In this document: positions 43,439 to 63,052 of the stretch, piece by piece
Position numbering within the stretch: position 1 is the stretch's first letter
Layout: the number at the start of each line of letters is the position of its first letter
DNA from: Ornithinimicrobium humiphilum
GTDB taxonomy: Bacteria > Actinomycetota > Actinomycetes > Actinomycetales > Dermatophilaceae
Length of the DNA stretch: 64,000 nt
Assembly (NCBI RefSeq): GCF_006716885.1
Contig: NZ_VFPU01000001.1
Location: forward strand, 124,001-188,000
Direction: 5' to 3'
The notes under the pieces: generated by a model
Told to the model about the DNA's origin: nothing
The model's database searches: none
Seen by the model: the letters and a program-made list of their open reading frames with translations, nothing else
Made by a program: the position numbers and the translations under genes

Positions 43439-43991
43439 CGCGCCCCCGTCCGGCGACCAGGGCCAGCCCGGCCACGAAGGAGCCGGCGGTGCCGCAGACG
43501 AGGTCGCCGATCGTGTCGTCGTAGCCGACCTGGATGCTGTCGTCGAGGACGGTGTGGCCGAACCACTCCCCGGCCTCCCAGATCACCGCGAGGAGCGCGC
43601 CGACGGCGGCGGTGACGAGGACCAGCCCGGCGGCGGGCAGCGTCACCGGGAGCTGGCGCGCCCGCTGCAGGAGCACCACCGCCGCGGCGGCCAGCAGGCC
43701 GTTGGCGACGGCGTGCACGACGATGTCGAGCCACGGGACGGCGACGTACCAGTCGAGGACCGCGCTCCAGCCCCCGAGGACCAGCGTCGCCCCGGTCGCG
43801 GCCTGCAGCCAGCCCGGCAGCCGCCCGACCCGGGGCAGGACCAGGCCGAGCAGCACCAGCGCGAAGAGCGCGACCGTCACGCCGTCGCGCCAGAAGGCGA
43901 CGACGAAGGAGGTCAGGCCGGCGACGGCGACGAGGTCGGTCGCGACCCTCGCCCACCGCGGGCCGGGGACGGAGAGCAGGTCAGGAGGCAA
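43431..43991 (-). CDS. DUF2238-like integral membrane protein
   Basis: A 186-residue protein with about five or six spans. The conserved end of the family is visible: EWFGHTVLDDSIQVGYDDTI followed by GDLVCGTAGSFVAGL. No enzymatic role is known for DUF2238. Its embedding between crtEb and crtX with 11- and 8-base overlaps makes a role in pigment synthesis, placement or transport likely, but this is inference. Confidence 0.65.
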   Translation of the reverse strand: MPPDLLSVPGPRWARVATDLVAVAGLTSFVVAFWRDGVTVALFALVLLGLVLPRVGRLPGWLQAATGATLVLGGWSAVLDWYVAVPWLDIVVHAVANGLLAAAAVVLLQRARQLPVTLPAAGLVLVTAAVGALLAVIWEAGEWFGHTVLDDSIQVGYDDTIGDLVCGTAGSFVAGLALVAGRGRDD

Positions 43992-44889
43992 GGGTCATCC
44001 AGATGAACAGCTGCGTGACGAGGAAGCCGGTGACCAGGTTGAGCCACAGGAAGCGGCGCCACCCGGCGTTGGCCCGCTCGCAGTCGGCGTCGGAGAGCGA
44101 GAGGAAGGGGGCCACGCTGGCGGCGTAGGGGATCACGAGGAGCGCGGCGAGCGCCCCGGGCCAGCCGACCGGCAGCAGCAGGACCCCCGCGACCAGGTAG
44201 GCGACGAAGGCGGCCCGCACGGTCGTCGCGGCCCCGAGCACGGTCGCGATCGAGGAGATCCCGCCCTCCCGGTCGGCGATGATGTCCTGCACCGCGCCGA
44301 AGGCCTGCGAGGCCATGCCCCAGACGAAGAAGGCGGCCAGCGCCAGGAGGACCGGCGTCGTCAGCTCCGCGTCGGCGATCGCGAGCGCGAAGACCGCGGG
44401 GCTGACGAAGTGGGTGCTCGAGGTGACCGAGTCGAGGACCGGGCGCTCCTTGAAGCGCAGCCCCGGCGCGGAGTAGGCGATGACCGCGAAGACGCTGATC
44501 GCCAGCACGACCGTCGAGAAGACGTCGCCGAGCAGCACCAGCGCGACCACGAAGGGCAGGTTGGTCAGCGCCGCCGCCCACAGCGTCAGCCGGTGCCAGC
44601 GCCGCGAGAGCACGACGCCCTCGACGCCGCCCTTGCGCGGGTTGCGCAGGTCGGACTCGTAGTCGAAGACGTCGTTGACGCCGTACATGAGCAGGTTGTA
44701 GGGGATGAGGAACCACAGGGTCCCCAGCACCAGCGTCAGGGTGATCCCCCCGCCCGCCAGCAGGTATGCCGCGGCGAAGGGATAGGCGGTGTTGACCCAG
44801 CTCAGCGGGCGTGACGAGCCGACCAGCTGGCGCAGGGCGCCCGGTGCCGCGGGCGCCGGGGCCGTGGGGGTCTGTCCGGTCGTGGTCAC
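43981..44889 (-). CDS. crtEb: Lycopene elongase (UbiA prenyltransferase family)
   Basis: A 302-residue membrane prenyltransferase with about eight spans. The first Asp motif is NDVFDYESD and the second is VQDIIADREGG. In C50 pathways CrtEb adds two C5 units to lycopene, giving nonaflavuxanthin and then flavuxanthin. Its place directly after the two small cyclase genes matches the C. glutamicum order crtYe-crtYf-crtEb. GTG 44889 overlaps the crtYf stop. Confidence 0.9.
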   Translation of the reverse strand: MTTTGQTPTAPAPAAPGALRQLVGSSRPLSWVNTAYPFAAAYLLAGGGITLTLVLGTLWFLIPYNLLMYGVNDVFDYESDLRNPRKGGVEGVVLSRRWHRLTLWAAALTNLPFVVALVLLGDVFSTVVLAISVFAVIAYSAPGLRFKERPVLDSVTSSTHFVSPAVFALAIADAELTTPVLLALAAFFVWGMASQAFGAVQDIIADREGGISSIATVLGAATTVRAAFVAYLVAGVLLLPVGWPGALAALLVIPYAASVAPFLSLSDADCERANAGWRRFLWLNLVTGFLVTQLFIWMTLAS

Positions 44890-45197
44890 TCGCTCGTCTC
44901 CCTGGGGTGCAGCAGCTCCCGCAGCGCGGGGAGCAGCAGCCCGGCCGCCAGCGGCCAGGCGAGGTCCTCGAGCGGAGCGTGCCACAGGTGCACGCCGAGC
45001 AGCGAGCTCTCGTCGAAGCGGAACAGGTCGGAGATGATCATCAGGCTGTCGAAGACGACCGTCAGGACGAGCAGGACGGCGATCGTGATCGCCGTGGTCA
45101 GCCACCAGCGGGCCGGGAGCCGACGGGCGACGGCGACGCCGACGGCCACGGCGGCCGACAGCGCGACGAAGACCAGGGCCAGGCCGGCGTAGGTCAT
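44886..45197 (-). CDS. crtYf: C50 carotenoid cyclase subunit
   Basis: A 103-residue protein with three spans, starting MTYAGLALVFVALSAAVA, and with the P-x-E motif in WHAPLEDLAWPLAAG that carries the catalytic acid of this cyclase type. It works as a heterodimer with the neighbouring subunit to close the end rings of flavuxanthin. Sequence alone does not tell epsilon-cyclase (decaprenoxanthin) from gamma-cyclase (sarcinaxanthin). ATG 45197 overlaps the stop codon of crtYe. Confidence 0.85.
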   Translation of the reverse strand: MTYAGLALVFVALSAAVAVGVAVARRLPARWWLTTAITIAVLLVLTVVFDSLMIISDLFRFDESSLLGVHLWHAPLEDLAWPLAAGLLLPALRELLHPRETSE

Positions 45198-45553
45198 CGG
45201 GGGCCTCCCGTGGCCGCGGCGCGTCCGCCGCCCGCGGAGGCGCGGTCGAGCGCCAGACCCACCAGGCCGTGGAGCACGAGGGTGAGGTAGCAGAGGAAGG
45301 TGATGAAGAGCAGCTCCTCGAGCGGCAGCTCCGGGGCCAGCATGATGCCGGTCATCGCCTCGCTCTCGCCGCGGTGGTAGAAGCCGAGCGCGATCGCCGC
45401 GACGTCCCAGAGGAGGAAGAGGACGATGCCCGTCGCGAGCACCGCGGCGCTGCGCCGCGGGTCGCGCCACAGCACGAGCCGGAAGCGCGCGTCGAGCAGC
45501 GCCATGCACGCGGTCGCGCCCAGCAGGAACGCGCCGTAGAGGAGGGCGGTCAC
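45194..45553 (-). CDS. crtYe: C50 carotenoid cyclase subunit
   Basis: A 119-residue protein with three spans; LAPELPLEELLFITFLCYL contains the P-x-E-E motif. It is the upstream partner of the heterodimeric C50 cyclase, named by gene order. GTG 45553 overlaps the crtI stop codon. The last 20 residues are Gly/Ala-rich and outside the membrane part. Confidence 0.85.
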   Translation of the reverse strand: MTALLYGAFLLGATACMALLDARFRLVLWRDPRRSAAVLATGIVLFLLWDVAAIALGFYHRGESEAMTGIMLAPELPLEELLFITFLCYLTLVLHGLVGLALDRASAGGGRAAATGGPR

Positions 45554-47202
45554 CGCGGACCGACCGCCAGGTCCTCGGCCGGGCGGGCGGGCTCCGGGGA
45601 CGGCCCCGCGGAGGTGTCGCCGCGCAGGCGCTTGAGGACGAGCTCGGCGCTGATGAGGCACATCGGCAGCCCGATGCCCGGGATGGTGCTCGACCCGGCG
45701 TAGAGGAGGCCGTCGACCCGCTTGCTGACGTTGCCGGTGCGGAACATCGCGCTCTGCCGCAGGGTGTGGCCCGGGCCGAGCATGCCGCCCTGCCAGGCGG
45801 ACAGGTCGGCGGCGAAGTCGCCGGGACCGATGGTGCGGCGCACGACGACGCGCTCGGCCAGGTCGGGGACACCCGCCCAGTCGGCGACCTGCCGGATCGC
45901 GGCGTCCGCGACGGCCTCGACGGCGGCGTCGCCCTGCCCGTCGGCACCGCCGCGGCCGAGGCCCGGGTCGGCGGGGACGGGCACGAGGACGAAGAGGTTC
46001 TCGTGCCCCTCCGGCGCGACGGTGGGATCGGTGGCCGAGGGCTTGCAGACGTAGGCCGACGCGGGGTCCGGCACGCTGCCGGCGAAGATCGCGTCGAAGT
46101 TGGCCTTCCAGTCGCGCGTGAAGAAGAGCGAGTGGTGCGGCATCTCGGGCAGCTCGCCGCGCACGCCGAGCAGCACCAGGACGGCGCCGGGGCCCGACGT
46201 GCGACGGTCCCAGTAGGACTGCGGGTAGGTCTGCAGGTCCGGCGGGAGCAGGCGGGTCTCCAGGTGGTGCAGGTCGCCGGCGCCGACCACGAGGTCGGCG
46301 GCGTGGACGTGCTCCTGGCCCTCGCGGTCGCGCCAGCGCAGCCCGGTCGCCCGGGATCGTGGGCCGCGGCGGGGCCGTCGCCCGGCGGGGAGCTCCTCGG
46401 TCGTGATGCCCACGACCGTCGCCCCGGTGCGGATCCGGGCGCCGTGGTGCGCGGCCTGCCCGGCCACCGCCTCGATGAGGCGGGTGAAGCCGCCCTCGGG
46501 GTACATCACCCCGCCGGTGAGGTCGAGCCCGCTCATGAGGTGGTAGAGCGCCGGCACCCGCTCCGGGGAGGACCCGAGGAAGACGGCCGGATAGCCGAGG
46601 ATCTGGCGCAGCCGCCGGTCCGAGAACCGGGCACCGACGAAGTCCTGCAGCGAGCGTGTCAGCAGCGGCAGCAGGCGCGGCAGGCGCCGCAGCACGTCGG
46701 GCGAGGCGAGGCCGAGCGGGGAGGTGAAGCTCGTGTAGAGGAAGTGGCGCAGCGCCACGTCGTAGGCCTCCGACGAGGAGCTCAGGTAGTCGGCCAGCGC
46801 CCGGCCAGCACCCGGCTCGACGTCCTCGAAGGTCGCCAGGTTGGCGCCGGTGTCGGCGGTGATGTCGAGCGGGGACGGCGCCGGCGTGCCGGGGCGGTCG
46901 GCCTCGAAGAAGACCCGGTAGGCGGGGTCCAGCACCTCGAGCCGCAGCTGCTCCTCGACACTCGTCCCGAGCAGCCGGAAGAAGTGCTCGAAGACCTCCG
47001 GCATGAGGTACCACGACGGGCCGGTGTCGAAGCGGAAGCCGTCCACGGCCAGCGAGCCGGCACGGCCCCCGACGTCGTCGCGCTGCTCGAAGACCTCGAC
47101 GTCGTGGCCCTCGGCAGCCAGCAGGGCTGCGGTGGCCAGGCCGGCGATGCCACCCCCGATCACGGCGACCCGGCGGGGGCCGGACGCGGTGCGGGCGCTC
47201 AT
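45550..47202 (-). CDS. crtI: Phytoene desaturase
   Basis: A 550-residue FAD enzyme that desaturates phytoene to lycopene. N-terminal VAVIGGGIAGLATAALLAAE and DVGGRAGSLAVDGFRFDTGP bind FAD; the C-terminus has GLLYAGSSTIPGIGLPMCL, the CrtI signature. MYPEGGFTRLIEA is also typical. A basic insert near residue 285 (GRRPRRGPRSRATG) is unusual. ATG 47202 overlaps the crtB stop codon. Confidence 0.93.
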   Translation of the reverse strand: MSARTASGPRRVAVIGGGIAGLATAALLAAEGHDVEVFEQRDDVGGRAGSLAVDGFRFDTGPSWYLMPEVFEHFFRLLGTSVEEQLRLEVLDPAYRVFFEADRPGTPAPSPLDITADTGANLATFEDVEPGAGRALADYLSSSSEAYDVALRHFLYTSFTSPLGLASPDVLRRLPRLLPLLTRSLQDFVGARFSDRRLRQILGYPAVFLGSSPERVPALYHLMSGLDLTGGVMYPEGGFTRLIEAVAGQAAHHGARIRTGATVVGITTEELPAGRRPRRGPRSRATGLRWRDREGQEHVHAADLVVGAGDLHHLETRLLPPDLQTYPQSYWDRRTSGPGAVLVLLGVRGELPEMPHHSLFFTRDWKANFDAIFAGSVPDPASAYVCKPSATDPTVAPEGHENLFVLVPVPADPGLGRGGADGQGDAAVEAVADAAIRQVADWAGVPDLAERVVVRRTIGPGDFAADLSAWQGGMLGPGHTLRQSAMFRTGNVSKRVDGLLYAGSSTIPGIGLPMCLISAELVLKRLRGDTSAGPSPEPARPAEDLAVGPR

Positions 47203-48080
47203 CGGGTCGCCGCCAGGCTCTGGGCGACGATGCGGGCCTTGACGACGTCGGGGACGCGCACCCGGCGGCGGGCGATCTCTGCGGCCGGCGTGCGGTGCAG
47301 GCGGCGGGAGAGCTCGGCGAAGAGCCCGTGCGCGGCGTGCACGGCGCAGCGGCTGCTCGGCGGCAGCAGCGGGATGACCGCGGCCGCGGCGGCGAGGTCG
47401 GCGTCGATGTCGGCGAGCAGCAGGTCGCGCTCGCGGTCGGTGAAGGTGGTCAGGTCGACGCCGGGGAAGTAGGTGCGGCCCAGCAGCTCCTGGTCGTCGT
47501 GGAGGTCGCGCAGGAAGTTGACCTTCTGGAAGGCCGCGCCGAGGGCGCGCGCGCCCGGGGTGAGCGCGTCGTAGCGGTCCTGGTCGCCGTCGACGAAGAC
47601 GCGCAGGCACATCAGGCCGACGACCTCCGCCGAGCCGTAGAGGTAGCCCGAGAGGCTCTCGGGGTCGTGGACCTGCACCGACAGGTCGGCGCGCATGGAG
47701 TCGAAGAAGGGGTCGACCAGGTCCCGACCGATGCCGAACTCCTTCGCCGTGAGTGCGAAGGCGTGGACGACGAGGTTGGCGCTGCCGCCGCTCCCCATCG
47801 CCCGGTGGGTCTCCTCCTGCAGCCCGTCGAGGAGAAGGGACCGGCGCTCGCGGGACCACGGCTGGCGGGCGTCGTCCACGAGCTCGTCCGCGACGCGGAC
47901 GAGGGCGTAGATCGAGCGCACGTGCGTGCGGACCGGCTCGTGCAGCAGGCGGGTGGCCCACCCGAAGGAGGTGGAGTACTCCCCGATGACCACCGCCGCG
48001 CTGGCGCGGGCCGCCCGGTCGTAGGTGGACGTGCACGCCGGTGCCGAACCCTCGCCGCGAGGCGGGCGGACGAACATCAT
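47199..48080 (-). CDS. crtB: Phytoene synthase
   Basis: A 293-residue squalene/phytoene synthase that joins two GGPP to phytoene. RSIYALVRVADELVDD holds the first Asp-rich motif and GAAFQKVNFLRDLHDD the second; YGSAEVVGLMCL is the conserved central helix. ATG 48080 overlaps the crtE stop codon, and a second ATG follows at once. Confidence 0.93.
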   Translation of the reverse strand: MMFVRPPRGEGSAPACTSTYDRAARASAAVVIGEYSTSFGWATRLLHEPVRTHVRSIYALVRVADELVDDARQPWSRERRSLLLDGLQEETHRAMGSGGSANLVVHAFALTAKEFGIGRDLVDPFFDSMRADLSVQVHDPESLSGYLYGSAEVVGLMCLRVFVDGDQDRYDALTPGARALGAAFQKVNFLRDLHDDQELLGRTYFPGVDLTTFTDRERDLLLADIDADLAAAAAVIPLLPPSSRCAVHAAHGLFAELSRRLHRTPAAEIARRRVRVPDVVKARIVAQSLAATR

Positions 48081-49303
48081 GCGGCGCCCCGGACACGCAC
48101 CCGGTCGAGCACGGGCCCGTCGGGCCCGGCGGCCGGGACGGCCAGCGGCTGCTCCAGCAGGGGCGTGCTCGCCTCCGCCTCCGCCTCCGCCAGGACCTCG
48201 GCCACCAGCGTCGCGGGGACGTCGGTCTGGGTGGGCTCGGCGGCCACCAGCCGGTGCGCCATGTCGCGCAGGACACCCGCGGCCTCCACCGGGAGGGAAC
48301 GGGTGGCGGCGATCGCCGAGGCGGCCAGCTCGGAGGCCATCGCCTCCACCGCCGACCGGGCCCCGCACGCGACGAGCAGCTCGCGGGCCCGTGCCGCATC
48401 CTCCTCGGTCAGCGCGGGGTCGCCGAGATGGGTGGCCAGCTCGGGCCACAGCCGGCTGTCCCGGGCGAAGGCCACGAGGGCGGTGCACTTGCCCTCACGG
48501 AGGTCGCTGAGCGGGTCCTTGCCGGTCTGCTCGAGGGTGCCGAAGACGCCGTCGAGGTCGTCGCGCAGCTGGAAGGCCAGCCCCAGGCAGCGGCCGGCCT
48601 CGCCGAGGGCCGACACCACGTCGGGCCCCGCGTCGGCGAGGAGGGCGGCCGCCTGCATGGGCAGCTCGAAGGAGTAGGCGGCCGTCTTCCAGGCGGCGAC
48701 GTCGAGCGCCTCGTCGAGGGTGGCCTCCCCGGTCAGGCTCACCCGCACGTCGGCGAGCTCGCCGGCCGCGCTGCGGTGCAGCACGTCCTCGAGCAGGTCC
48801 AGGAGGGCGGCGACCACGTCGGGCCGGGCTCCGCAGAGGGCGACCTCGCGGACCGCCCCGGCGAGGGCCAGGTCGCCGGCGAGGATGCCCGCCGCCTCGC
48901 CGTAGCGGCGGGCGCGCTCGGGGGAGGCGCCGGCCTTCACGGCCCGGGCGGTGAAGGTGCCGGTGACGTTGGGACGCCCCCGTCGCACGACGTCGCCGTC
49001 GATGACGTCGTCGTGGACGACGAAGGCGGTGTGGAGCAGCTCGACCGCGTCCGCCACGGCCCGCGCGGCCGCGTGCTCGGTGCCCCCGAGTGCGTCGTGC
49101 ATGCGGAGCAGCAGGGTGGGGCGGAAGCGCTTGCCGCCCTCGGTCAGCCCGTGCAGGGCGTCCCAGAGGACGGCGTCGTGATCGTCGACCACCGCGGAGC
49201 GCCCGGTGGTGAAGAAGCGTGCGTGCGGGTCGGTCCCGGCAGGAGGAACCCCGGGAGCCAGCGGCGCGGCATCGGGGTCCGGTGCGAGGGTGCCAGCTGT
49301 CAT
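48077..49303 (-). CDS. crtE: Geranylgeranyl diphosphate synthase
   Basis: A 408-residue polyprenyl synthase: GGKRFRPTLLLRMHDALGG, HTAFVVHDDVIDGD with the first Asp-rich motif (Asp98, 99, 102), KTAAYSFELPMQAAALLAD and FQLRDDLDGVFG, the second region. It makes C20 diphosphate for crtB. First gene of the ten-gene operon. The start is uncertain: ATG 49303 has only a weak ribosome site; ATG 49369 would add 22 residues but lies inside the promoter by comparison with the photolyase gene. Confidence 0.92.
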   Translation of the reverse strand: MTAGTLAPDPDAAPLAPGVPPAGTDPHARFFTTGRSAVVDDHDAVLWDALHGLTEGGKRFRPTLLLRMHDALGGTEHAAARAVADAVELLHTAFVVHDDVIDGDVVRRGRPNVTGTFTARAVKAGASPERARRYGEAAGILAGDLALAGAVREVALCGARPDVVAALLDLLEDVLHRSAAGELADVRVSLTGEATLDEALDVAAWKTAAYSFELPMQAAALLADAGPDVVSALGEAGRCLGLAFQLRDDLDGVFGTLEQTGKDPLSDLREGKCTALVAFARDSRLWPELATHLGDPALTEEDAARARELLVACGARSAVEAMASELAASAIAATRSLPVEAAGVLRDMAHRLVAAEPTQTDVPATLVAEVLAEAEAEASTPLLEQPLAVPAAGPDGPVLDRVRVRGAA

Positions 49304-49357: not shown

Positions 49358-49395
49358 TGGAGCCAGCATGCCAGATGGGACAAACATTTGACAAC
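49358..49395 (-). promoter_or_regulatory. crt operon promoter with 11-bp tandem TTGTC repeats
   Basis: On the minus strand GTTGTC (49395-49390) and TTTGTC (49384-49379) stand head to tail with an 11-base period. CATGCT (49370-49365) and then GGCTCCA follow, giving a likely start point at 49358. The element is AT-rich in a very GC-rich genome. It is nearly identical to the element before the photolyase gene: 15 of 17 bases match over TTGTCANNTGTTTGTCC. Confidence 0.65.
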
Positions 49396-49512
49396 TAACC
49401 TTGGACACGGAGTTCCCCCTCCGCGTCCACCCTAGGTGTTCGGGCGGGTTCCCGCCATCGGTGAGGGCGGGCGGTCGCGTCCGTCCGGAGGGCGCGCCGA
49501 CCTGCGGCGGGA

Positions 49513-52852: not shown

Positions 52853-53380
52853 TCAGGCGTGCCGCACCGCCATCCACAGCGCCACGTGCTCGGGGCGCGT
52901 GCCCCCACGGACGCGCGGCGGCACGACGTCGTCCTCGCGGACGAACGACCACTCGGTGACCGCGATGTTCAGCGGCTCGGCCCAACGGCGCGAGGACACC
53001 AGCACGCCGCTGTCGGCACGCAACGTGAGCAGGGGCGGGATGGCGCGCTCGGTGAGCTGCATACCCGGCACGACGAAGCGGTCGTCCCCGACGACGTCGT
53101 AGCGGGACCGGCGTGCGAGGCCGAGGCGCCGGGGCTCGGCATGACGGATCGTCGCCACGTCCTCGCCGTTCCAGCGCACGAGGACGCCGATCTCGAGGCA
53201 GGCGTAGAACCCCAGGCGCAACGGCCTCGAGGTCTGCTCGTAGATGAGCCCACGGTGCGTCACGTCGAGCTCGACCGTCTGGTCGCCGACGACCGCCTCC
53301 ACGCCGGTGTCGAGCCTGCGGACCGCTGCCGGCCCCCACCTCGTCCAGCGGTGCAGCCTGGTCTCCTGCGGCGCCGTCAC
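52853..53380 (-). CDS. Unknown protein coupled to the GTP cyclohydrolase II fusion
   Basis: A 175-residue protein with no motif I recognise. It reads as mostly beta-strand (LDTGVEAVVGDQTVELDVTH, VLVRWNGEDVATIRHA, RFVVPGMQLTERAI, GVLVSSRRWAEPLNIAVTEW), without signal peptide or membrane span. GTG 53380 overlaps the stop codon of the ribA/ribD-like fusion gene, so it is translationally coupled and very likely belongs to the same pathway, perhaps as a binding or tailoring protein. Confidence 0.65.
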   Translation of the reverse strand: MTAPQETRLHRWTRWGPAAVRRLDTGVEAVVGDQTVELDVTHRGLIYEQTSRPLRLGFYACLEIGVLVRWNGEDVATIRHAEPRRLGLARRSRYDVVGDDRFVVPGMQLTERAIPPLLTLRADSGVLVSSRRWAEPLNIAVTEWSFVREDDVVPPRVRGGTRPEHVALWMAVRHA

Positions 53381-54789
53381 GCGTCGCCCTCGGTGTCGAG
53401 CGAGCCGACCGGCCGCAGCACCGGCCGCCCGGCCCCCGACCCGCCCAGGTCGAACTCGGTCACGACGTCCTGCCCGAGCAGCCAGCGCCGCACCGGCGGC
53501 CGCAGCGCGTCGGCCAGCCGGTCGGTGCCGTCCACCCGCAGGCCGGGGACGCCGTCGCCGATGAGCAGCGGGGCCGTCGTCAGGTAGAGGCGGTCGACCG
53601 TGCCCGCGTCGACGAAGGCCGACACCAGCCGGCCGCCACCCTCGACGAGCACCCGCCGCAGTCCGCGGGCCCGCAGCAGCGCGAGCACCTCGCGGGGATC
53701 CATCGGTCCTGCGCCCGGCCATCGCACCACCTCGACGTGCTCCGCGGTCGCTCCCGCCTCGACGTCGGGGCCCACCACCCACAGGGTCGGGGCGGCGCCG
53801 TCGGTGAGGAGCGCGGCCTCGCGGGGGAGCACCCCGCGGGGGTCGAGCACGACCCGGGCCGGGTTGTCGCCGGGGACCGCGCGCACGGTGAGCCGGGGAT
53901 CGTCGGCGACGGCGGTGCTCGCACCCACGACGACCGCGTCCACGAGCGCGCGGAGCCGGTGCAGGTGCTCCCTGTCCTCCTCGCCGGTGACGAAGACGGC
54001 GTCGCCGGTGCGGCTGGCGATGAAGCCGTCGAGGCTCTGCCCCAGCTGCGCCAGCACCGTCGGGCCACCGGCCCGGACCAGGTCGCCGTAGCGCTCCGAG
54101 AGGACCCCGCCGGCGACCGTCCCGCCGGCGAGCAGCACCTCCCACTCGCCGCCCTCGACACGGTCGTGGCCCATCCGCTCGCGCTTGGTCCGCAGGTAGT
54201 GCTCGTTCTCGGGCCGGGCGGGCACGACGAGGGCCTCGCGGCCGACCACCCGGACCCCGAGCGCCGTCAGCGCGTGCTCCTTGGCCGGGTTGGAGGAGAG
54301 CAGCCGGATGCTCCGCACGCCCAGGTCGGCGAGCATCGCCGCGCTCTGGTCGTAGGTGCGGGCGTCGGCGGGGTGCCCGAGGCGGAGGTTGGCGTCCACG
54401 GTGTCGACCCCGGTGTCCTGCAGGGCGTAGGCGCGCAGCTTCTGCACCAGGCCGATGCCGCGCCCCTCGTGGCCACGGACGTAGAGCACGGCGCCCCGGC
54501 CGTCGCGGGCGACGAGGTGCAGCGCGTGCTGCAGCTGCTCGCCGCAGTCGCAGCGGAAGGAGCCCAGGGCGTCGCCGGTGAGGCACTCGGAGTGGACGCG
54601 CACCAGCGGTGGTGGCGCGTCGAGCGGGTCGTCGTCGGCGATGCCCACGCTGAGGGCCACGTGCTCCTCGCCGCCCTCGTCGCGGTAGGCGGTCATCCGG
54701 AAGGTGCCGTGCCGCGTGGGCAGGACGGTGTCGGCGAGGCGCTGCACCGATGTCAGCGGGCCGTCCTCGAGAACGGGTTCGGAAGACAT
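53377..54789 (-). CDS. GTP cyclohydrolase II fused to a RibD-type pyrimidine reductase domain
   Basis: A 470-residue two-domain enzyme. Residues 20 to about 215 are GTP cyclohydrolase II: zinc ligands Cys69, Cys80 and Cys82 in SECLTGDALGSFRCDCGEQ, the GTP-phosphate loop RGHEGRGIGL, and LLSSNPAKEHALTALGV. From about 243 follows the dihydrofolate-reductase-like RibD C-terminal domain: LAQLGQSLDGFIA, VDAVVVGASTAVADDPRL and VLVEGGGRLVSAFVDAG. Together they could open GTP and reduce the ribose side chain to a ribitylamino-pyrimidine. There is no deaminase domain and no DHBP synthase, so this is not simply a riboflavin gene. CATACT ends six bases before ATG 54789. Confidence 0.88.
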   Translation of the reverse strand: MSSEPVLEDGPLTSVQRLADTVLPTRHGTFRMTAYRDEGGEEHVALSVGIADDDPLDAPPPLVRVHSECLTGDALGSFRCDCGEQLQHALHLVARDGRGAVLYVRGHEGRGIGLVQKLRAYALQDTGVDTVDANLRLGHPADARTYDQSAAMLADLGVRSIRLLSSNPAKEHALTALGVRVVGREALVVPARPENEHYLRTKRERMGHDRVEGGEWEVLLAGGTVAGGVLSERYGDLVRAGGPTVLAQLGQSLDGFIASRTGDAVFVTGEEDREHLHRLRALVDAVVVGASTAVADDPRLTVRAVPGDNPARVVLDPRGVLPREAALLTDGAAPTLWVVGPDVEAGATAEHVEVVRWPGAGPMDPREVLALLRARGLRRVLVEGGGRLVSAFVDAGTVDRLYLTTAPLLIGDGVPGLRVDGTDRLADALRPPVRRWLLGQDVVTEFDLGGSGAGRPVLRPVGSLDTEGDA

Positions 54790-54795
54790 TCTCCG

Positions 54796-54801
54796 AGTAT
54801 G
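54796..54801 (-). promoter_or_regulatory. Possible -10 box CATACT, leaderless
   Basis: CATACT on the minus strand ends six bases before ATG 54789 of the cyclohydrolase II fusion gene. Confidence 0.4.
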
Positions 54802-54903
54802 TCCGTGGGCGCGGGGCTCATCCTGCCCAAACGTGCGGGCGGGCGGCCCGACCTGCTCGGATCCCCTTCGGTCGTCCGATGGTCGCCAGGGCGCCGCTGG
54901 CCC

Positions 54904-54909
54904 TAGGGT
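54904..54909 (+). promoter_or_regulatory. -10 box TAGGGT, leaderless osmoprotectant operon
   Basis: TAGGGT ends seven bases before ATG 54917, with no ribosome binding site between. Confidence 0.5.
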
Positions 54910-54916
54910 GGCGTCG

Positions 54917-55981
54917 ATGATCCGGTTCGAGAGCGTCACCAAGAGGTATGCCGACGGCACGGTCGCCGTCGACGACCTCACCCTGGAGGTGCCCCGGGGC
55001 GGGATCACCGTGCTCGTGGGCCCGTCCGGCTGCGGCAAGACCACCAGCCTGCGGATGGTCAACCGGATGGTGGAGCCGACGTCCGGCCGCGTGCTCCTCG
55101 ACGGGGAGGACGTCGCCGCCCGCCCGGCCGCCCAGCTGCGGCGCAGCATCGGCTACGTCATCCAGCACGCCGGCCTCTTCCCGCACCGCACGGTGCTGGG
55201 CAACGTCATGACCGTGCCCCGGCTGCTCGGCTGGGACCGGGCCAGGGCGCGCGCCGCCGCGATGGAGGCGCTGGAGAAGGTGGGGCTCACCGCCGACCAG
55301 GCGCGCCGCTATCCCGCGCAGCTCTCCGGCGGCCAGCAGCAGCGGGTCGGCGTCGCCCGGGCGCTCGCGAGCGGGCCGGAGGTCGTGCTCATGGACGAGC
55401 CCTTCAGCGCCGTCGACCCCATCGTGCGCGCCGAGTTGCAGGACGAGGTGCGCCGGCTGCAGCGCGAGCTCGGCATCACCGTCGTCCTCGTCACCCACGA
55501 CATCGACGAGGCCCTCGGCCTGGGAGACACCGTCGCCGTGCTGCGCGAGGGCGGTCATCTCGCCCAGGTCGCCGACCCCGCCACCCTGCTGGCCGAGCCG
55601 GCGGACGACTTCGTGGCCAGCTTCGTCGGCCGCGACCGCGGCTACCGTGCGCTGGGCTTCGCGGACGTGGCCGTCGAGCCCCGGCCGGTGCCCACGGCCC
55701 GCCTCGGCGAGAGCGTGCCCGCCGGCGCGGGCTGGGTGCTCGCCGTCGACGAGGCCGGTGCACCGCTCGGCTGGGCCGACGCCACCGGCTGGGGCGGCCC
55801 CCTCACCGAGCAGCGGCTCCAGCGGCTGGGCGGCCTGGCCCCGCTCGGGGCGAGCGCCCGCACCCTCCTCGACGCCGCGCTGTCCTCGCCGAGCCGCCGC
55901 GGCGTGGTCGTCGCCGACGGCAGGGTGGTCGGGACCGTGGGCGCCGACGAGGTCCTCGCAGCCCTGGGGGAGCGCCGGTGA
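54917..55981 (+). CDS. Osmoprotectant ABC transporter ATP-binding protein (ProV/OpuCA-like)
   Basis: A 354-residue ATPase: Walker A GPSGCGKTTS, Q-loop IQHAGLFPHRTV, signature LSGGQQQRVGVARAL, Walker B VVLMDEPFSAVDP and H-loop VLVTHDIDEAL. About 100 residues after the ATPase (from 250) include SSPSRRGVVVADGRVVGTVG, a CBS-like repeat as in OpuA-type importers, where it senses ionic strength. It powers uptake of glycine betaine, choline or a relative. First of four coupled genes. Confidence 0.9.
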   Translation: MIRFESVTKRYADGTVAVDDLTLEVPRGGITVLVGPSGCGKTTSLRMVNRMVEPTSGRVLLDGEDVAARPAAQLRRSIGYVIQHAGLFPHRTVLGNVMTVPRLLGWDRARARAAAMEALEKVGLTADQARRYPAQLSGGQQQRVGVARALASGPEVVLMDEPFSAVDPIVRAELQDEVRRLQRELGITVVLVTHDIDEALGLGDTVAVLREGGHLAQVADPATLLAEPADDFVASFVGRDRGYRALGFADVAVEPRPVPTARLGESVPAGAGWVLAVDEAGAPLGWADATGWGGPLTEQRLQRLGGLAPLGASARTLLDAALSSPSRRGVVVADGRVVGTVGADEVLAALGERR

Positions 55982-58300: not shown

Positions 58301-58752
58301 GCGGCGACGACACGCGGCGCAGCGTCGACGCCGAGCACTCCCGTCCCGAGGGCGCCACGGACGCCGAGGTCGAGGCGGCCGGCACGATCAGCGAGGCGCT
58401 GGAGAAGGTCGAGCGGGCGCGCGGGCACCTCTACTCCTTCCACCAGCTCATCGGGGCGGCCGACTTCGGCTTCGAGGACGGTGCCGACCAGCTCGAGGCG
58501 AGCGGTCACCGCGAGCTGGCCGAGCGGCTCCGCACGGAGCTCATCGGCCTCAACGTGCTCGCGGGCCGCTGGAGCTTCCAGGTCGTCGAGGACTTCGACG
58601 ACGGTTACTGGACCACGGCGCGCGAGCTCGACCGGGTCGTCCGGGACGCGGTCACCGACGAGCGCCGGCACGTCTACGAGGCCGAGCTCAAGCAGGAGCG
58701 CCGCACCCACGGCCGGTCGGGCCACGAGGCCACGCCCGCCGACGTCGACTAG
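58297..58752 (+). CDS. Conserved hypothetical protein
   Basis: A 151-residue acidic, helical, cytosolic protein. ISEALEKVERARGHLYSFHQ and DQLEASGHRELAERLRTELI give two amphipathic helices, followed by WSFQVVEDFDDGYW. I recognise the pattern only as an uncharacterised actinobacterial family. ATG 58297 overlaps the stop codon of the binding-protein gene, so it is the last gene of the osmoprotectant operon by position; its stop overlaps that of the convergent photolyase gene by 4 bases. Confidence 0.7.
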   Translation: MSGDDTRRSVDAEHSRPEGATDAEVEAAGTISEALEKVERARGHLYSFHQLIGAADFGFEDGADQLEASGHRELAERLRTELIGLNVLAGRWSFQVVEDFDDGYWTTARELDRVVRDAVTDERRHVYEAELKQERRTHGRSGHEATPADVD

Positions 58753-60110
58753 CGCACGGCCTCGTAGCGCCGCAGCGCCTCGCGCCGCTCCTCGGCGTGG
58801 TCGACGATGCGTCGCGGGTAGTCGTGGTCGTAGCCCTGGGGGTGGTCCCACGGCTCGTGCGCGGCCCGGCCCGGCAGATGGGCCAGCTCGGGCACCCAGC
58901 GCCGCACGTAGTCGCCGTCGGGGTCGAAGCGCAGCCCCTGGGTCACCGGGTTGAAGACGCGGAAGTAGGGCGCGGCATCGGTCCCGGTGCCGGCCACCCA
59001 CTGCCAGCCGTGGTTGTTGGAGGCGAGGTCGCCGTCGACCAGGTGGTCGAGGAAGTGCCGCGCGCCGACCGGCCACCACACGTGCAGGTCCTTGGTGAGG
59101 AAGCTGGCGGTGATCATCCGCACCCGGTTGTGCATCCAGCCCTCGGCGAGCAGCTGCCGCATGCCCGCGTCGACGACCGGATAGCCGGTCCGTCCGGTCC
59201 GCCACGCCTCGACCGCGTCCTCGGGCTCGTCGTAGCGCAGCCCTGACAGCCCGTCGCGCAGGTCGCGCCAGGCGCTGTGGGGGTGGTGGTGGAGGACGTC
59301 GGCGTAGAACTCCCGCCATGCCAGCTCGGTCCGGTATGCCGTGGCACCCTCGCCGCGGTGCTCCTCCAGCTCGACGAGCAGGGTGCGCGGGTGGACGGCC
59401 CCGACCTTGAGGTAGGGCGAGAGCCGGCTGGTCGCGTCGAGGTCTGGCCGGTCCCGGCCGGAGCGGTAGCCGGCGAGGTCGGCCCCGAGGAAGGACCGCC
59501 AGCGCGCCAGGGCCGCGGCCTGGCCGGGCTCGGGCAGCCGGGGCAGGTCGTCCACGGCGAGCGCCTCGACGAGAGCCCGCTCGGCGGCGGGGTCGGACGG
59601 TGCGTCGACGAGGTCGAGGCGGCGGGGCGTGGGAGCGGGCTGCGGCCAGCCGTGCTCCTCCCAGGCGCGGGAGAAGGGGGTGAACACCTTGTAGGGGTCA
59701 CCGGAGCCGTTGCGGACCAGGCCGGGCCCCACGGCATAGGGCGTGCCGGTCTCGACCCAGGCGACCTCCTCGTCGAGCGCCGCACGCACCCGCGCGTCGC
59801 GCCGGGCGCCGGTGGGGAAGGTCTCGCGGGTGACGTGCACCGAGGTCGCGCCGAGCTCACGGGCCAGCGCGGGCACCACCTCGACGGGGTCGCCGGCGCG
59901 CAGGACCAGCCGACCGTCCAGCCGCTCCGCCACCGCGCGGACGGAGGCGGCGACCCAGGCGCGGCGGACCGGACCGCCACCGCGCCAGAGCGCCGGGTCG
60001 ACGACGAAGACCACCGCCAGCGCTCCTCCTCCCGCGGCCTCGCGGGCGGCCAGCAGGGCCGGGTGGTCGCTGGTCCGGAGGTCGCGGCGGAGCCACAGGA
60101 GGGCGGTCAT
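58749..60110 (-). CDS. phrB: Deoxyribodipyrimidine photolyase
   Basis: A 453-residue DNA photolyase that repairs cyclobutane dimers with light. The N-terminal alpha/beta antenna domain starts TALLWLRRDLRTSDHPALLA. The FAD-binding helical domain shows SRLSPYLKVGAVHPRTL, LAWREFYADVLHHHP, GYPVVDAGMRQLLAEGWMHN, NNHGWQWVAGTGTDAAPYFR and FNPVTQGLRFDP. TAGACT ends six bases before ATG 60110, and tandem 11-base repeats stand just upstream that are shared with the crt promoter, so it is probably light- or stress-induced together with the carotenoids. Confidence 0.94.
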   Translation of the reverse strand: MTALLWLRRDLRTSDHPALLAAREAAGGGALAVVFVVDPALWRGGGPVRRAWVAASVRAVAERLDGRLVLRAGDPVEVVPALARELGATSVHVTRETFPTGARRDARVRAALDEEVAWVETGTPYAVGPGLVRNGSGDPYKVFTPFSRAWEEHGWPQPAPTPRRLDLVDAPSDPAAERALVEALAVDDLPRLPEPGQAAALARWRSFLGADLAGYRSGRDRPDLDATSRLSPYLKVGAVHPRTLLVELEEHRGEGATAYRTELAWREFYADVLHHHPHSAWRDLRDGLSGLRYDEPEDAVEAWRTGRTGYPVVDAGMRQLLAEGWMHNRVRMITASFLTKDLHVWWPVGARHFLDHLVDGDLASNNHGWQWVAGTGTDAAPYFRVFNPVTQGLRFDPDGDYVRRWVPELAHLPGRAAHEPWDHPQGYDHDYPRRIVDHAEERREALRRYEAVR

Positions 60111-60160
60111 GGAGCCAGTCTAGATCGCTATGGACAAACACGTGACAAAAATATGACAAA
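60110..60160 (-). promoter_or_regulatory. phrB promoter with three 11-bp TTTGTC repeats
   Basis: On the minus strand TTTGTC occurs at 60160-60155, 60149-60144 and 60138-60133, an exact 11-base head-to-tail period. TAGACT (60122-60117) follows, then GGCTCC and the ATG at 60110, so the message is probably leaderless. The stretch from the -10 box to the start (CTGGCTCCA) is shared with the crt promoter. Confidence 0.7.
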
Positions 60161-60241
60161 CTGTGAATCCGGACGGGGATCGCCGCCCGTAGTGACAGGT
60201 GAGGGCGGATCCGCCGCCCCCCGAGAACCGAGGAGCACCCG

Positions 60242-61054
60242 ATGCGCAAGACCGCCACCACCGCCACCGTCCTGCTGGGCGGCGTCGCCCTCGCCGCGCT
60301 GGCCGCCCCGGCCACCGCCGCCGAGGACGAGTCGACCGTCTCCGTGCTGCACGGTGTGCCGGGCCTGACCGTCGACGTCTACATCAACGGCGAGGAGGCC
60401 CTGCCCGACTTCGCCCCCGGCACCCTGACCGACCCGATGATGCTGGCCGCGGGCACCTACGACATCGACGTCTACGCCGACGGCGACACCCCCGACTCCG
60501 CCGAGCCGGCCATCTCCGCCGCGGGCCTGGAGGTGCCGGGCGGCGCCAACCTGACCCTCGCGGCCCACCTGGGCGAGGACGGCACCCCGATGCTCAGCGC
60601 CTTCGTCAACGACGTCTCCGCCACCGAGGCCGGCCAGGCGCGGCTGACCGTCCGTCACGCCGCGGCCGCCCCGGCCGTCGACGTCCGCGCCGGCGGCAGC
60701 CCGGTCATCGAGGGTCTGACCAACCCGGACGAGGAGGTCCTGAACCTCGACGCCGGCACCGTCTCCGCCGACGTCGTGCTCGCGGGCACCGACGAGGTCG
60801 TCCTCGGCCCGGCCGACGTCGAGCTCGCCGAGGGCACGAACACGATCGTCTACGCGTGGGGCTCGGCGGAGGACGGCTCGCTCGACCTCGCCGTCCAGAC
60901 CATCGACGGCCTGCACAGCGCCCCCGAGGGCGTGCCCTCCGGCCAGGGCGGCCTCGCCGACTCCGGCGCCCTGCTCGTGCTGGCTCTCGCCGGCGCCGCC
61001 GGTGCCGTCGTCGCCGGTCGTTCCGTCGTCCGCGCCAACGCCACCGTCGCCTGA
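60242..61054 (+). CDS. Secreted DUF4397 protein with LAxTG-like sorting signal
   Basis: A 270-residue exported protein. Signal peptide over residues 1-28 (ATVLLGGVALAALAAPATA), then a DUF4397 beta-sandwich region beginning SVLHGVPGLTVDVYINGE and a second similar stretch from RLTVRHAAAAPAVDVRAGG. The C-terminus is LADSG (238-242), a hydrophobic span and RSVVR: the layout of a sortase substrate, close to the LAxTG used by actinobacterial class E enzymes. The next gene is a sortase, so it is probably anchored by it. Ribosome site CGAGGAG. Probably an abundant wall protein. Confidence 0.85.
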   Translation: MRKTATTATVLLGGVALAALAAPATAAEDESTVSVLHGVPGLTVDVYINGEEALPDFAPGTLTDPMMLAAGTYDIDVYADGDTPDSAEPAISAAGLEVPGGANLTLAAHLGEDGTPMLSAFVNDVSATEAGQARLTVRHAAAAPAVDVRAGGSPVIEGLTNPDEEVLNLDAGTVSADVVLAGTDEVVLGPADVELAEGTNTIVYAWGSAEDGSLDLAVQTIDGLHSAPEGVPSGQGGLADSGALLVLALAGAAGAVVAGRSVVRANATVA

Positions 61055-61059
61055 CGACC

Positions 61060-61821
61060 ATGCGCCCCCGAACCCGGCGACGGACCCGCGTCGACCTGAC
61101 CGCCCTCCTGGTCACGGTCGTCTGCGTGGCCGTCGCCGGGTGGGCGCTGCGCGGCCTCCTGGCCGACCCGGTGCCGCAGGTCGACGACTTCGGCACCCCC
61201 GAGAACGCCGCGGTGGCCACCGCCGGGTCCAGCCCCTCGGACGACCCGGCGGGGGCCACCGCGGTCCCGGACGACGACGCCCGGACCACCGCCGTCCCGG
61301 ACCCCGAGCGCGGGTCGGCACCCGTCCCTCCCACCTACCGCTCGGCCTCCCTGGCAGAGCGTCCCGCGCGCGACCCGGCGCCGGTCCGGCTGCGGGTGCC
61401 GTCGGTCGGGCTCGACGTCCCGCTCGACGCGGTCGCCGTCGCCGCGGACGGGCAGATGGAGGTGCCGGACGACGCCTCGCGTGCCGGTTGGTACCGCCAC
61501 GGCCCCCCTCCCGGCTCCGCTGCCGGCTCCGCCGTCGTCGCCGGGCACGTCGACGACCCCACCGGCCCGGGGGCGTTCCTCGCCCTCACCGAGGCGGCCG
61601 AGGGTGACGACGTCCTCGTCGACCTCGAGGACGGCACGACCGTCCGCTACCGCATCACGGCGCGGGAGACCGTCGCCAAGCCCGAGCTGGCGGTCGACGA
61701 CCTCTTCCGCCGCGACGGCCCGTCCGTCCTGCGCCTGGTCACCTGCACGGGCGAGTGGTCGCGGGCGACCGGGCACTACACCGACAACCTCGTCCTGACC
61801 GCCGAGCCGAGCACCTCATGA
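61060..61821 (+). CDS. Class F (actinobacterial) sortase
   Basis: A 253-residue membrane-anchored transpeptidase. One N-terminal span (LLVTVVCVAVAGWALRGLL), a long acidic Pro/Ala-rich linker to about residue 105, then the sortase barrel: RLRVPSVGLDVPLDAV, GSAVVAGHVDDP with catalytic His163, and LRLVTCTGEW with Cys229 and Arg235. The domain type matches the class F sortases of Actinobacteria, whose substrates are little known. It starts five bases after the DUF4397 gene, its likely substrate, and its stop overlaps the sigma-factor start. Confidence 0.87.
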   Translation: MRPRTRRRTRVDLTALLVTVVCVAVAGWALRGLLADPVPQVDDFGTPENAAVATAGSSPSDDPAGATAVPDDDARTTAVPDPERGSAPVPPTYRSASLAERPARDPAPVRLRVPSVGLDVPLDAVAVAADGQMEVPDDASRAGWYRHGPPPGSAAGSAVVAGHVDDPTGPGAFLALTEAAEGDDVLVDLEDGTTVRYRITARETVAKPELAVDDLFRRDGPSVLRLVTCTGEWSRATGHYTDNLVLTAEPSTS

Positions 61822-62414
61822 GAGCCGTTCCCGATCCCCCCGCCGTGACGGTGACCACCGGAGCTCCCGCCGCGCCCCTGGTCGCCGAGGAGGAGCTGGC
61901 GGCCGCCTGGGCCGACGGCGACGAGACCGTCGTCCAGCTCGCCTACGAGCGCTGGGGACCCCTCGTCCACGGCCTGGCCCGACGTGCCGTCGGTCCCGCC
62001 GACGCCGAGGACGTGACCCAGCAGGTCTTCCTCGCCGCCTGGCGGGGACGCAGCACCTACCGCCCGGCCGACGCGCCGCTCGGCGCCTGGCTCGTCGGCA
62101 TCACCCGCCGGCAGGTCGCCGACTTCCTGCGCCGCCGGCACCGCACCGCCGAGGTCCCGACCACGGCCGAGGACCTGCCCGAGGGCACCGACCCCCGCTG
62201 GAGCCCCGACGACGCCGACGACCTCATGGCCGTCTACGCGGAGCTGGAGAAGATCGGGGAGCCGCAGCGCCAGATCGTGCTGCTCGCCTACGTCCACGAC
62301 CGCACCCAGCGCGAGATCGCCGAGGAGCTCGACCTGCCCCTGGGGACCGTCAAGACCCACACCACCCGCACCATGGCCCGGCTCCGCTCGATCCTGGGAG
62401 GAGGAGCGCGATGA
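61818..62414 (+). CDS. ECF RNA polymerase sigma factor
   Basis: A 198-residue sigma-70 family ECF factor. Region 2: VVQLAYERWGPLVHGLARRA and DAEDVTQQVFLAAWRG; region 4: IGEPQRQIVLLAYVHDRTQR, EIAEELDLPLGTVKTHTTRT. The SigK/SigL-like arrangement with the next gene, an RskA-type anti-sigma factor, fits control of envelope genes. ATG 61818 overlaps the sortase stop codon; an upstream start at 61755 lies inside the sortase gene. Its coupling to the sortase suggests that it is co-expressed with the surface protein it may regulate. Confidence 0.9.
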   Translation: MRAVPDPPAVTVTTGAPAAPLVAEEELAAAWADGDETVVQLAYERWGPLVHGLARRAVGPADAEDVTQQVFLAAWRGRSTYRPADAPLGAWLVGITRRQVADFLRRRHRTAEVPTTAEDLPEGTDPRWSPDDADDLMAVYAELEKIGEPQRQIVLLAYVHDRTQREIAEELDLPLGTVKTHTTRTMARLRSILGGGAR

Positions 62415-63052
62415 ACGACCTCACCGCCGTCGACCCGCACGCCCGGGTCGCCGCCCTGCTGCACCGCGCCGGTCCCGTCGAGGATCCGCCCCCGCCCCGG
62501 GTGTGGAGCGCCGTCGAGCGGGATCTCTCCGACCCGTCGGCCGCCCCCGTGGTGCCGCTCGTGCGGCCCAGCCGTCGTCGTACGGGACCCCAGCTGGTCG
62601 CGGCCGCCGCCGTCGGCGCCCTGCTCACGTGGGGCGGCCTGTCCCTCCTCGGCGAGGAGGGCGGTGACGTCGTCGCCAGCGGCCCCCTCGCCCCCCTCAC
62701 GGACACGGGCGTCGGCGGCTCGGTCTCGGTCGTCGAGACCGCCGGCGGCCAGCGGCTTCGGGTCGAGCTCGACGACCTTCCGGACGCCGGCGACGGCTAC
62801 CTCGAGGTCTGGCTGCTCCGCCCCGACGTCTCGGGCATGGTGACCCTCGGGGTCCTCGACGGCACCACCGCCGAGTTCCCCCTCCCCGCCGGTCTCGACC
62901 TCGGCGACTACCCCGTGGTCGACATCTCCCGCGAGCACATGGACGGCGACCCCGGTCACGGCGGCGACAGCCTCGTCCGCGGCGAGGTCGCCACCGGGGC
63001 GGGGCAGAACGCCGCGCCCGCCGCGCCCGACTCCACTAGCCTCGAAGGATGA
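62411..63052 (+). CDS. Anti-sigma factor, RskA C-terminal domain family
   Basis: A 213-residue single-span membrane protein. The cytosolic part (1-55) lacks the Cys/His zinc motif of ZAS-type anti-sigma factors; there is no Cys in the protein. One span at about 60-80 (QLVAAAAVGALLTWGGLSLL), then the extracytoplasmic anti-sigma-K domain: YLEVWLLRPDVSGMVTLGVL, GLDLGDYPVVDISREHMDG and GHGGDSLVRGE. It should hold the sigma factor until proteolysis. ATG 62411 overlaps the sigma-factor stop codon. Confidence 0.87.
   Translation: MNDLTAVDPHARVAALLHRAGPVEDPPPPRVWSAVERDLSDPSAAPVVPLVRPSRRRTGPQLVAAAAVGALLTWGGLSLLGEEGGDVVASGPLAPLTDTGVGGSVSVVETAGGQRLRVELDDLPDAGDGYLEVWLLRPDVSGMVTLGVLDGTTAEFPLPAGLDLGDYPVVDISREHMDGDPGHGGDSLVRGEVATGAGQNAAPAAPDSTSLEG
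63037..63042 (+). promoter_or_regulatory. -10 box TAGCCT, leaderless TspO-like gene
   Basis: TAGCCT lies inside the end of the anti-sigma gene and ends six bases before ATG 63049, which itself overlaps the anti-sigma stop. The gene may thus be read both from the operon and alone. Confidence 0.4.

Follow-up and report, generated by a model that had tools for sequence, protein, structure and literature searches.

The question raised by this locus of Ornithinimicrobium humiphilum is whether crtE of the carotenoid operon and the photolyase gene phrB, which lie 10.7 kb apart, are controlled by one light-responsive regulator through a common operator. A preliminary description of the window, i.e. 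the whole 64,000-nucleotide stretch of DNA that was analyzed, claimed three TTTGTC units before phrB, a related pair before crtE, a close likeness of the two sites, and a regulator encoded outside the window. The sequence claims are all borne out. On the minus strand, TTTGTC occurs at 60160-60155, 60149-60144 and 60138-60133 with an exact period of 11; GTTGTC (49395-49390) and TTTGTC (49384-49379) stand 11 bases apart; and the two stretches compared (TTGTCANNTGTTTGTCC, phrB side versus crtE side) are identical in 15 of 17 bases. The features are collected in Table 1, where G000 denotes the genome under study; other genomes (G###) and fetched stretches (L###) are numbered in the same manner.

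Table 1. Positions of genes, predicted promoter elements and putative operators (window coordinates unless stated otherwise)
Feature	Position	Strand	Remarks
Two small lycopene-cyclase-type frames and UbiA-type prenyltransferase	43984..45549	-	PF18916, UbiA; PRK13105 prenyltransferase above cut-off
crtI-like phytoene desaturase	45550..47202	-	Amino_oxidase
crtB, phytoene synthase	47199..48080	-	SQS_PSY
crtE, polyprenyl synthetase	48077..49303	-	PF00348; preferred start ATG 49303
Putative crtE -10, CATGCT	49365..49370	-	predicted; 18 bp from TTGTCA within the upstream repeat
Putative crtE-side operator, GTTGTC-N5-TTTGTC	49379..49395	-	score 11/12
phrB, deoxyribodipyrimidine photolyase	58749..60110	-	Pfam DNA_photolyase and FAD_binding_7
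Putative phrB -10, TAGACT	60117..60122	-	read from the sequence; six bases before ATG
Putative phrB-side operator, three exact TTTGTC units, 11-bp period	60133..60160	-	score 18/18 bases
ECF-type promoter-like TGAATCC-N17-CGTAGT	60164..60193	+	3 bp from the outermost repeat
DUF4397 protein gene	60242..61054	+	PF14344; divergent from phrB
Sortase-like ORF	61060..61821	+	named by eye from the translation
ECF sigma factor	61755..62414	+	true start probably 61818
RskA-type anti-sigma factor	62411..63052	+	PF10099
litR	G000:C1:189614-190582 = L014:6615-7583 = window-equivalent 65614-66582	-	MerR, B12-binding_2 and B12-binding domains

The crt operon is laid out as in C50 carotenoid operons of the type crtE-B-I-Ye-Yf-Eb, and its product would presumably be a C50 carotenoid; the segment 45197-45550 has no Pfam match. 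The closest photolyase to PhrB (83%) is that of Ornithinimicrobium pekingense. Photolyase requires FAD, and a riboflavin gene with GTP cyclohydrolase II and RibD_C domains is located between the crt operon and phrB (53377-55149, minus strand). The position of the putative phrB -10 suggests a leaderless mRNA, such mRNAs being frequent in actinobacteria. Upstream of crtE, the stretch GCATGCT or GCATCCT around the putative -10 is kept in eight of ten orthologues. Measured from the putative phrB -10, the phrB-side units lie 11-38 bp upstream, with a spacer of 22 bases between the innermost unit and the ATG at 60110. The repeats would cover the predicted -35 region of both crtE and phrB.

The pattern TTTGTC-N5-TTTGTC, when up to two mismatches are allowed, has three matches in the window, whereas 100 dinucleotide shuffles gave a mean of 0.25 and a maximum of two, none reaching three. 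When up to one mismatch is allowed, it fits five places in the 3.44-Mb genome, of which three belong to the phrB and crtE sites and two (L004 and L005) were inspected by eye, and none when the pattern is read backwards; with at most two mismatches the counts are 16 and 8. A chance repeat was rejected on these shuffle and reversed-pattern counts in window and genome, and the scan did not show the repeats to be common before unrelated genes of this genome. At crtE, most relatives have a third, degraded unit (e.g., GCGTC) 11 bp farther upstream, and G000 and G001 have a GTGTCC that is out of register, at 13 and 12 bp upstream, respectively (49395-49415, minus strand).

According to PMC8156234 and PMC9304148, operators of the B12-dependent photoreceptor CarH consist of direct repeats of 11 bp arranged in tandem (consensus nAnnTnnACAn), three in Thermus thermophilus and four in Bacillus megaterium, that overlap the -35 or -10 element. 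When the window sites are read on the plus strand, where TTTGTC becomes GACAAA, the ACA core is present in all five units of both sites, and the T three bases ahead of it (the published TnnACA unit) in one unit per site; the common repeat form of the genus, TTGACAAACATTTGACAAA, carries both. The carH gene of T. thermophilus HB27 and a phytoene synthase gene, behind which lies phr, are transcribed in divergent directions; the carH gene run includes an NDUFA9-like SDR gene. Scanning the carH/crtB-phr intergenic region with the window motif identified AATGTA-N5-TTTGTC-N5-TTTGTA, a match in 14 of 18 positions that was reached by one of 2000 shuffles. The two systems share a regulator with MerR and B12 domains and Wx9EH, three tandem 11-bp repeats, linked carotenoid and photolyase genes, and an SDR-type gene near the regulator (the NDUFA9-like gene there, NmrA beside litR here). 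They differ in that the core is TTTGTC/TTTGTA there and TTTGTC here, in the 10.7-kb distance between crtE and phrB, and in that the operator described here also abuts an ECF-type promoter.

A gene combining MerR and B12-binding domains, litR, is located 1.6 kb beyond the window end, in agreement with the placement of the regulator outside the window. Its product has an N-terminal MerR domain followed by the B12-binding_2 and B12-binding domains, the order expected of class I LitR/CarH photoreceptors. The B12-binding family occurs at eight places in G000, and the other two LitR matches of this genome comprise the B12 part alone or the MerR part alone. LitR matches T. thermophilus CarH (5c8d) with an E value of 4e-29 and 31-37% identity over the aligned parts. 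The Wx9EH motif, which caps the Ado group, is kept in LitR of G000 and in all 24 LitR rows of the genus (the set left after removing six rows from outside it; the match is weak, 29%, in G005 and truncated in G023). In the B12-ligand motif D/ExHx2G (PMC9304148), the His is kept in the alignment with CarH, while D/E is replaced by T and G by A; the G is present in several LitR proteins of the genus. The NCBIfam CarH equivalog NF052513 is the best match of LitR (E 4.9e-36), yet the score is 124 of 400 bits, below the cut-off. Because of the altered ligand motif and the missed cut-off, we call this predicted regulator LitR/CarH-type and not CarH proper. A phylogenetic tree built from 30 MerR-B12 proteins places it in a cluster with seven others (97/94), five of which sit beside crtE in their own genomes. 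The genome also encodes a cobalamin adenosyltransferase. Between the sigma operon and litR are genes for a CPBP-type intramembrane protease and an NmrA-like protein (L014:4892-6649; window-equivalent 63891-65648); in G000 the CPBP gene closely follows the preceding gene, and the TTTGTC pair that precedes CPBP-NmrA in G016, G027, G028 and G004 was not seen there.

Among 31 genomes of the genus, crtE orthologues (E at most 1e-40) were found in ten. Within the 300 nt preceding crtE, each of the ten has two TTTGTC-type units spaced at 11 bp with a score of 10 of 12 or better: six reach 12, two reach 11 and two reach 10; the second prenyl synthase of G014 (G014b), kept apart from this count, scores 8. 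The phrB gene is present in 24 of the 31 genomes, and a site precedes it in five. Four species, G000, G001, G014 and G024, have an own phrB site adjoining the DUF4397 gene, with at least two good units kept; in G005, the crtE site is located between divergent crtE and phrB. The other 19 phrB genes have no site, scoring at most 8 (8/12 for phrB of G004). The pairing of crtE and phrB as joint targets stands for crtE throughout its orthologues; for phrB it has to be amended, as only a minority of the genus phrB genes would be targets. Two phrB pieces (L210 and L211, C-terminal halves) and a DUF4397 paralogue (G020b) were left out of the counts.

The element was also expected at the regulator gene itself, which holds for most litR genes of the genus: a score of at least 9 of 12 is reached within 420 nt in 22 of the 24 rows, and a shuffle p of at most 0.05 in 21 of the 24. 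The litR and DUF4397 counts overlap, because in three genomes (G004, G016 and G018) one and the same site precedes litR and faces DUF4397. The expectation fails for litR of G000, whose upstream region scores 7/12 (p 0.78). This region holds a variant, TGTACAAGGTCCGTCC, whose surroundings are conserved in 16 of 16 positions in G001 and 14 of 16 in G007 and G021 (0, 1 and 2 of 200 shuffles, respectively, reached the score); with G003 and G017, the litR upstream region of G000 has its best shared stretch at another position.

The fetched stretches, which were chosen for holding sites and annotated by a simple gene caller, contain 275 called genes. A pair scoring at least 10 precedes 23 of them (the site at phrB of G000 enters this number twice), and with the single exception of L142 these are known targets or adjoin DUF4397; the remaining 252 genes serve as the control. 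The L142 case is TTGTC-N6-TTGTC before a gene outside the known target set in G002 (L142:7298-7924). Further sites recur upstream of two other genes, one for the CPBP protease, with NmrA behind it, and one for an SRPBCC-like protein named from sequence. The SRPBCC-like gene has a TTTGTC pair just upstream in G010, G008 and G073 (L137:7947-8378, L138:7335-7808 and L144:7747-8199); in G073, which belongs to another family, the SRPBCC-like gene is followed by litR. Across the 31 genus genomes, TTGTC-N6-TTGTC occurs 65 times, compared with 14 for the reversed control. In a sample of 396 genomes from the order, the stricter TTGTC-N3-TGTTTGTC was found in ten genomes (13 places) versus five genomes for the reversed control, so that outside the genus it is near background. 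Two of the 13 places are in G000 and one in G073; eight (L117, L225-L229, L232 and L233) have no light gene within 3 kb by comparison with light-gene proteins, the weak match at L117 being a wrongly called frame, and the two places in G294 (L234 and L236) lay outside this comparison.

The phrB-side site needs a further amendment to the preliminary description, as it also abuts the promoter of a divergent operon that encodes DUF4397, sortase-like, ECF sigma and RskA-type proteins, and is kept there where phrB is elsewhere. The ECF-type motif TGAATCC-N17-CGTAGT is present upstream of DUF4397 in nine of 11 loci examined; its shorter form GAATCC-N15-19-CGTAGT has a single occurrence in the genome. 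DUF4397 orthologues are found in 24 of the 31 genus genomes. Repeats scoring at least 10 of 12 stand beside the DUF4397 promoter in 17 of the 20 LitR-bearing genomes and in none of the four that lack LitR (Fisher p 0.0033, uncorrected for kinship and with several rows near-identical); the LitR-bearing list for this test includes G023 and excludes G005, neither of which has a DUF4397 row. The LitR-bearing genomes below the threshold are G007 (8), G002 (9) and G025 (9), and those without LitR score 9 (G026), 6 (G009), 7 (G020) and 7 (G015). The ECF motif has been kept in G026, where the repeats are degraded. Neither is present in the remaining three (G009, G015 and G020), whose scored stretches were placed by distance alone, so that only G026 separates the repeats from the ECF motif. 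Since the repeats stay at DUF4397 in G027, G003, G004, G016 and G018, where phrB is located elsewhere, the DUF4397-side operator is probably older than the arrival of phrB.

The earlier reading of the repeats as an operator of the CarH/LitR kind gains support from the genus footprint, the co-occurrence of DUF4397-side repeats with LitR, and the match in the T. thermophilus carH region. Together with the repeat statistics and the nearby LitR/CarH-type gene, these make a dark-repressed, light-released CarH/LitR operator, a known kind of element, the most likely identity of the repeats. That they are operators of the single LitR/CarH-type regulator of this genome, which would block crtE and phrB in the dark and release them in the light, is in our judgment probable. 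In the dark, adenosylcobalamin-loaded LitR would bind head to tail on the 11-bp repeats and block RNA polymerase at crtE and phrB, whose predicted -35 regions the repeats cover; in the light, the cobalt-carbon bond would be broken, LitR would leave the DNA, and the carotenoid and photolyase genes would be expressed together. The phrB-side operator, which also touches the divergent promoter, would probably gate the DUF4397-sortase-sigma-RskA operon as well. We infer LitR binding, B12 loading, the light response and its sign; for the sign, dark repression with light release at crtE and phrB is favored, given that CarH operators at which the polymerase is blocked in the dark likewise lie across the -35 region. 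Against this assignment to LitR stand the low score upstream of litR in G000 itself, where only the variant is conserved, the single TnnACA T per window site, the altered B12-ligand motif (T for D/E, A for G), the low NF052513 score of the protein, and the many phrB genes of the genus without a site. A further contrary observation comes from a Streptomyces atratus plasmid, where the same motif scan of the intergenic region between a sigma factor gene and a MerR-B12 gene gave no such repeat (best triple 10/18).

Streptomyces also provides the basis for an alternative that we regard as unlikely, namely that the repeats are promoter elements of the neighboring ECF sigma factor, which would transcribe crtE and phrB as LitS does, with LitR acting through the sigma factor only. 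According to PMC12705666, LitR of Streptomyces acts through LitS on crtE and promotes litS transcription in the light, so that the sign of control at the DUF4397-sigma promoter may be either positive or negative. Both systems have a MerR-B12 regulator and a similar ECF sigma factor in a light/carotenoid neighborhood, and the sigma factor described here is the best match in its genome to the LitS-type sigma of S. atratus (E 4e-34; next 3e-16), a reference encoded next to a MerR-B12 gene within a carotenoid cluster and presumed to be LitS from this position. Unlike in Streptomyces, crtE and phrB themselves carry the repeats. Those at phrB abut the promoter of the LitS-like sigma operon, but the likely ECF promoter is a separate motif that was not found upstream of any of the 11 crtE rows examined, and two to three head-to-tail copies are unlike a -35/-10 pair. 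An improbable reading assigns the repeats at 60133-60160 to the DUF4397-sigma operon only, with phrB adjacent and uncontrolled. Their retention at DUF4397 in the five genomes where phrB has another location, and the small share of genus phrB genes with a site, are in its favor; the perfect units of G000 close upstream of the putative phrB -10, the good units kept by all four species with phrB at this position, and the position of T. thermophilus phr behind the carH-facing crtB argue for control of phrB.

Light-induced crt genes of another actinobacterium, Corynebacterium glutamicum, are controlled by the MarR-family CrtR (PMC6739363), which resembles the induction predicted here, and a divergent marR gene is reported in the same source at crt clusters of light-responding Micrococcales. 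Binding of the repeats by such a regulator is nevertheless very improbable: the neighbor divergent from crtE is of the alcohol dehydrogenase type and not marR, the repeat is direct, in contrast to the inverted repeats of MarR sites and the TTAA that CrtR requires, and light has little effect on phrB of C. glutamicum (PMC6739363). That the AT-rich upstream stretches are alike by chance, to which one could appeal because only two sites share more than the core, is scarcely credible in view of the site at all ten crtE orthologues, the shuffles, the genome counts, the 23 of 275 genes and the co-occurrence of DUF4397-side repeats with LitR. Another relative of the proposed system is class II LitR of Pseudomonas (PmlR2/PplR), where phrB and other genes are light-induced via a LitR homologue; it differs in having part of the B12 region only, a LOV protein partner, and TGTACA-N12-TGTACA sites (PMC9758184).

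On the reading of the repeats as LitR operators, it is possible, and we advance it with some doubt, that one back-to-back operator serves both a housekeeping-type photolyase promoter (or that of litR in relatives) and the ECF-type promoter of the DUF4397-sortase-LitS-like sigma-RskA operon. Direct repression in the Thermus style would then be combined with a Streptomyces-style sigma branch ending at the cell surface, and relocation next to an operator already present would have brought phrB into the regulon. Growth of the regulon by relocation of phrB is in itself likely, judging from comparison of the genomes, because phrB has the element only beside DUF4397 or crtE. A search of open-licence papers found no LitR study in Ornithinimicrobium. 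The analysis thus provides this genus with a predicted B12-photoreceptor regulon that has a sharp operator motif, and makes the relation of direct CarH-type repression to LitR-sigma cascades in actinobacteria testable.
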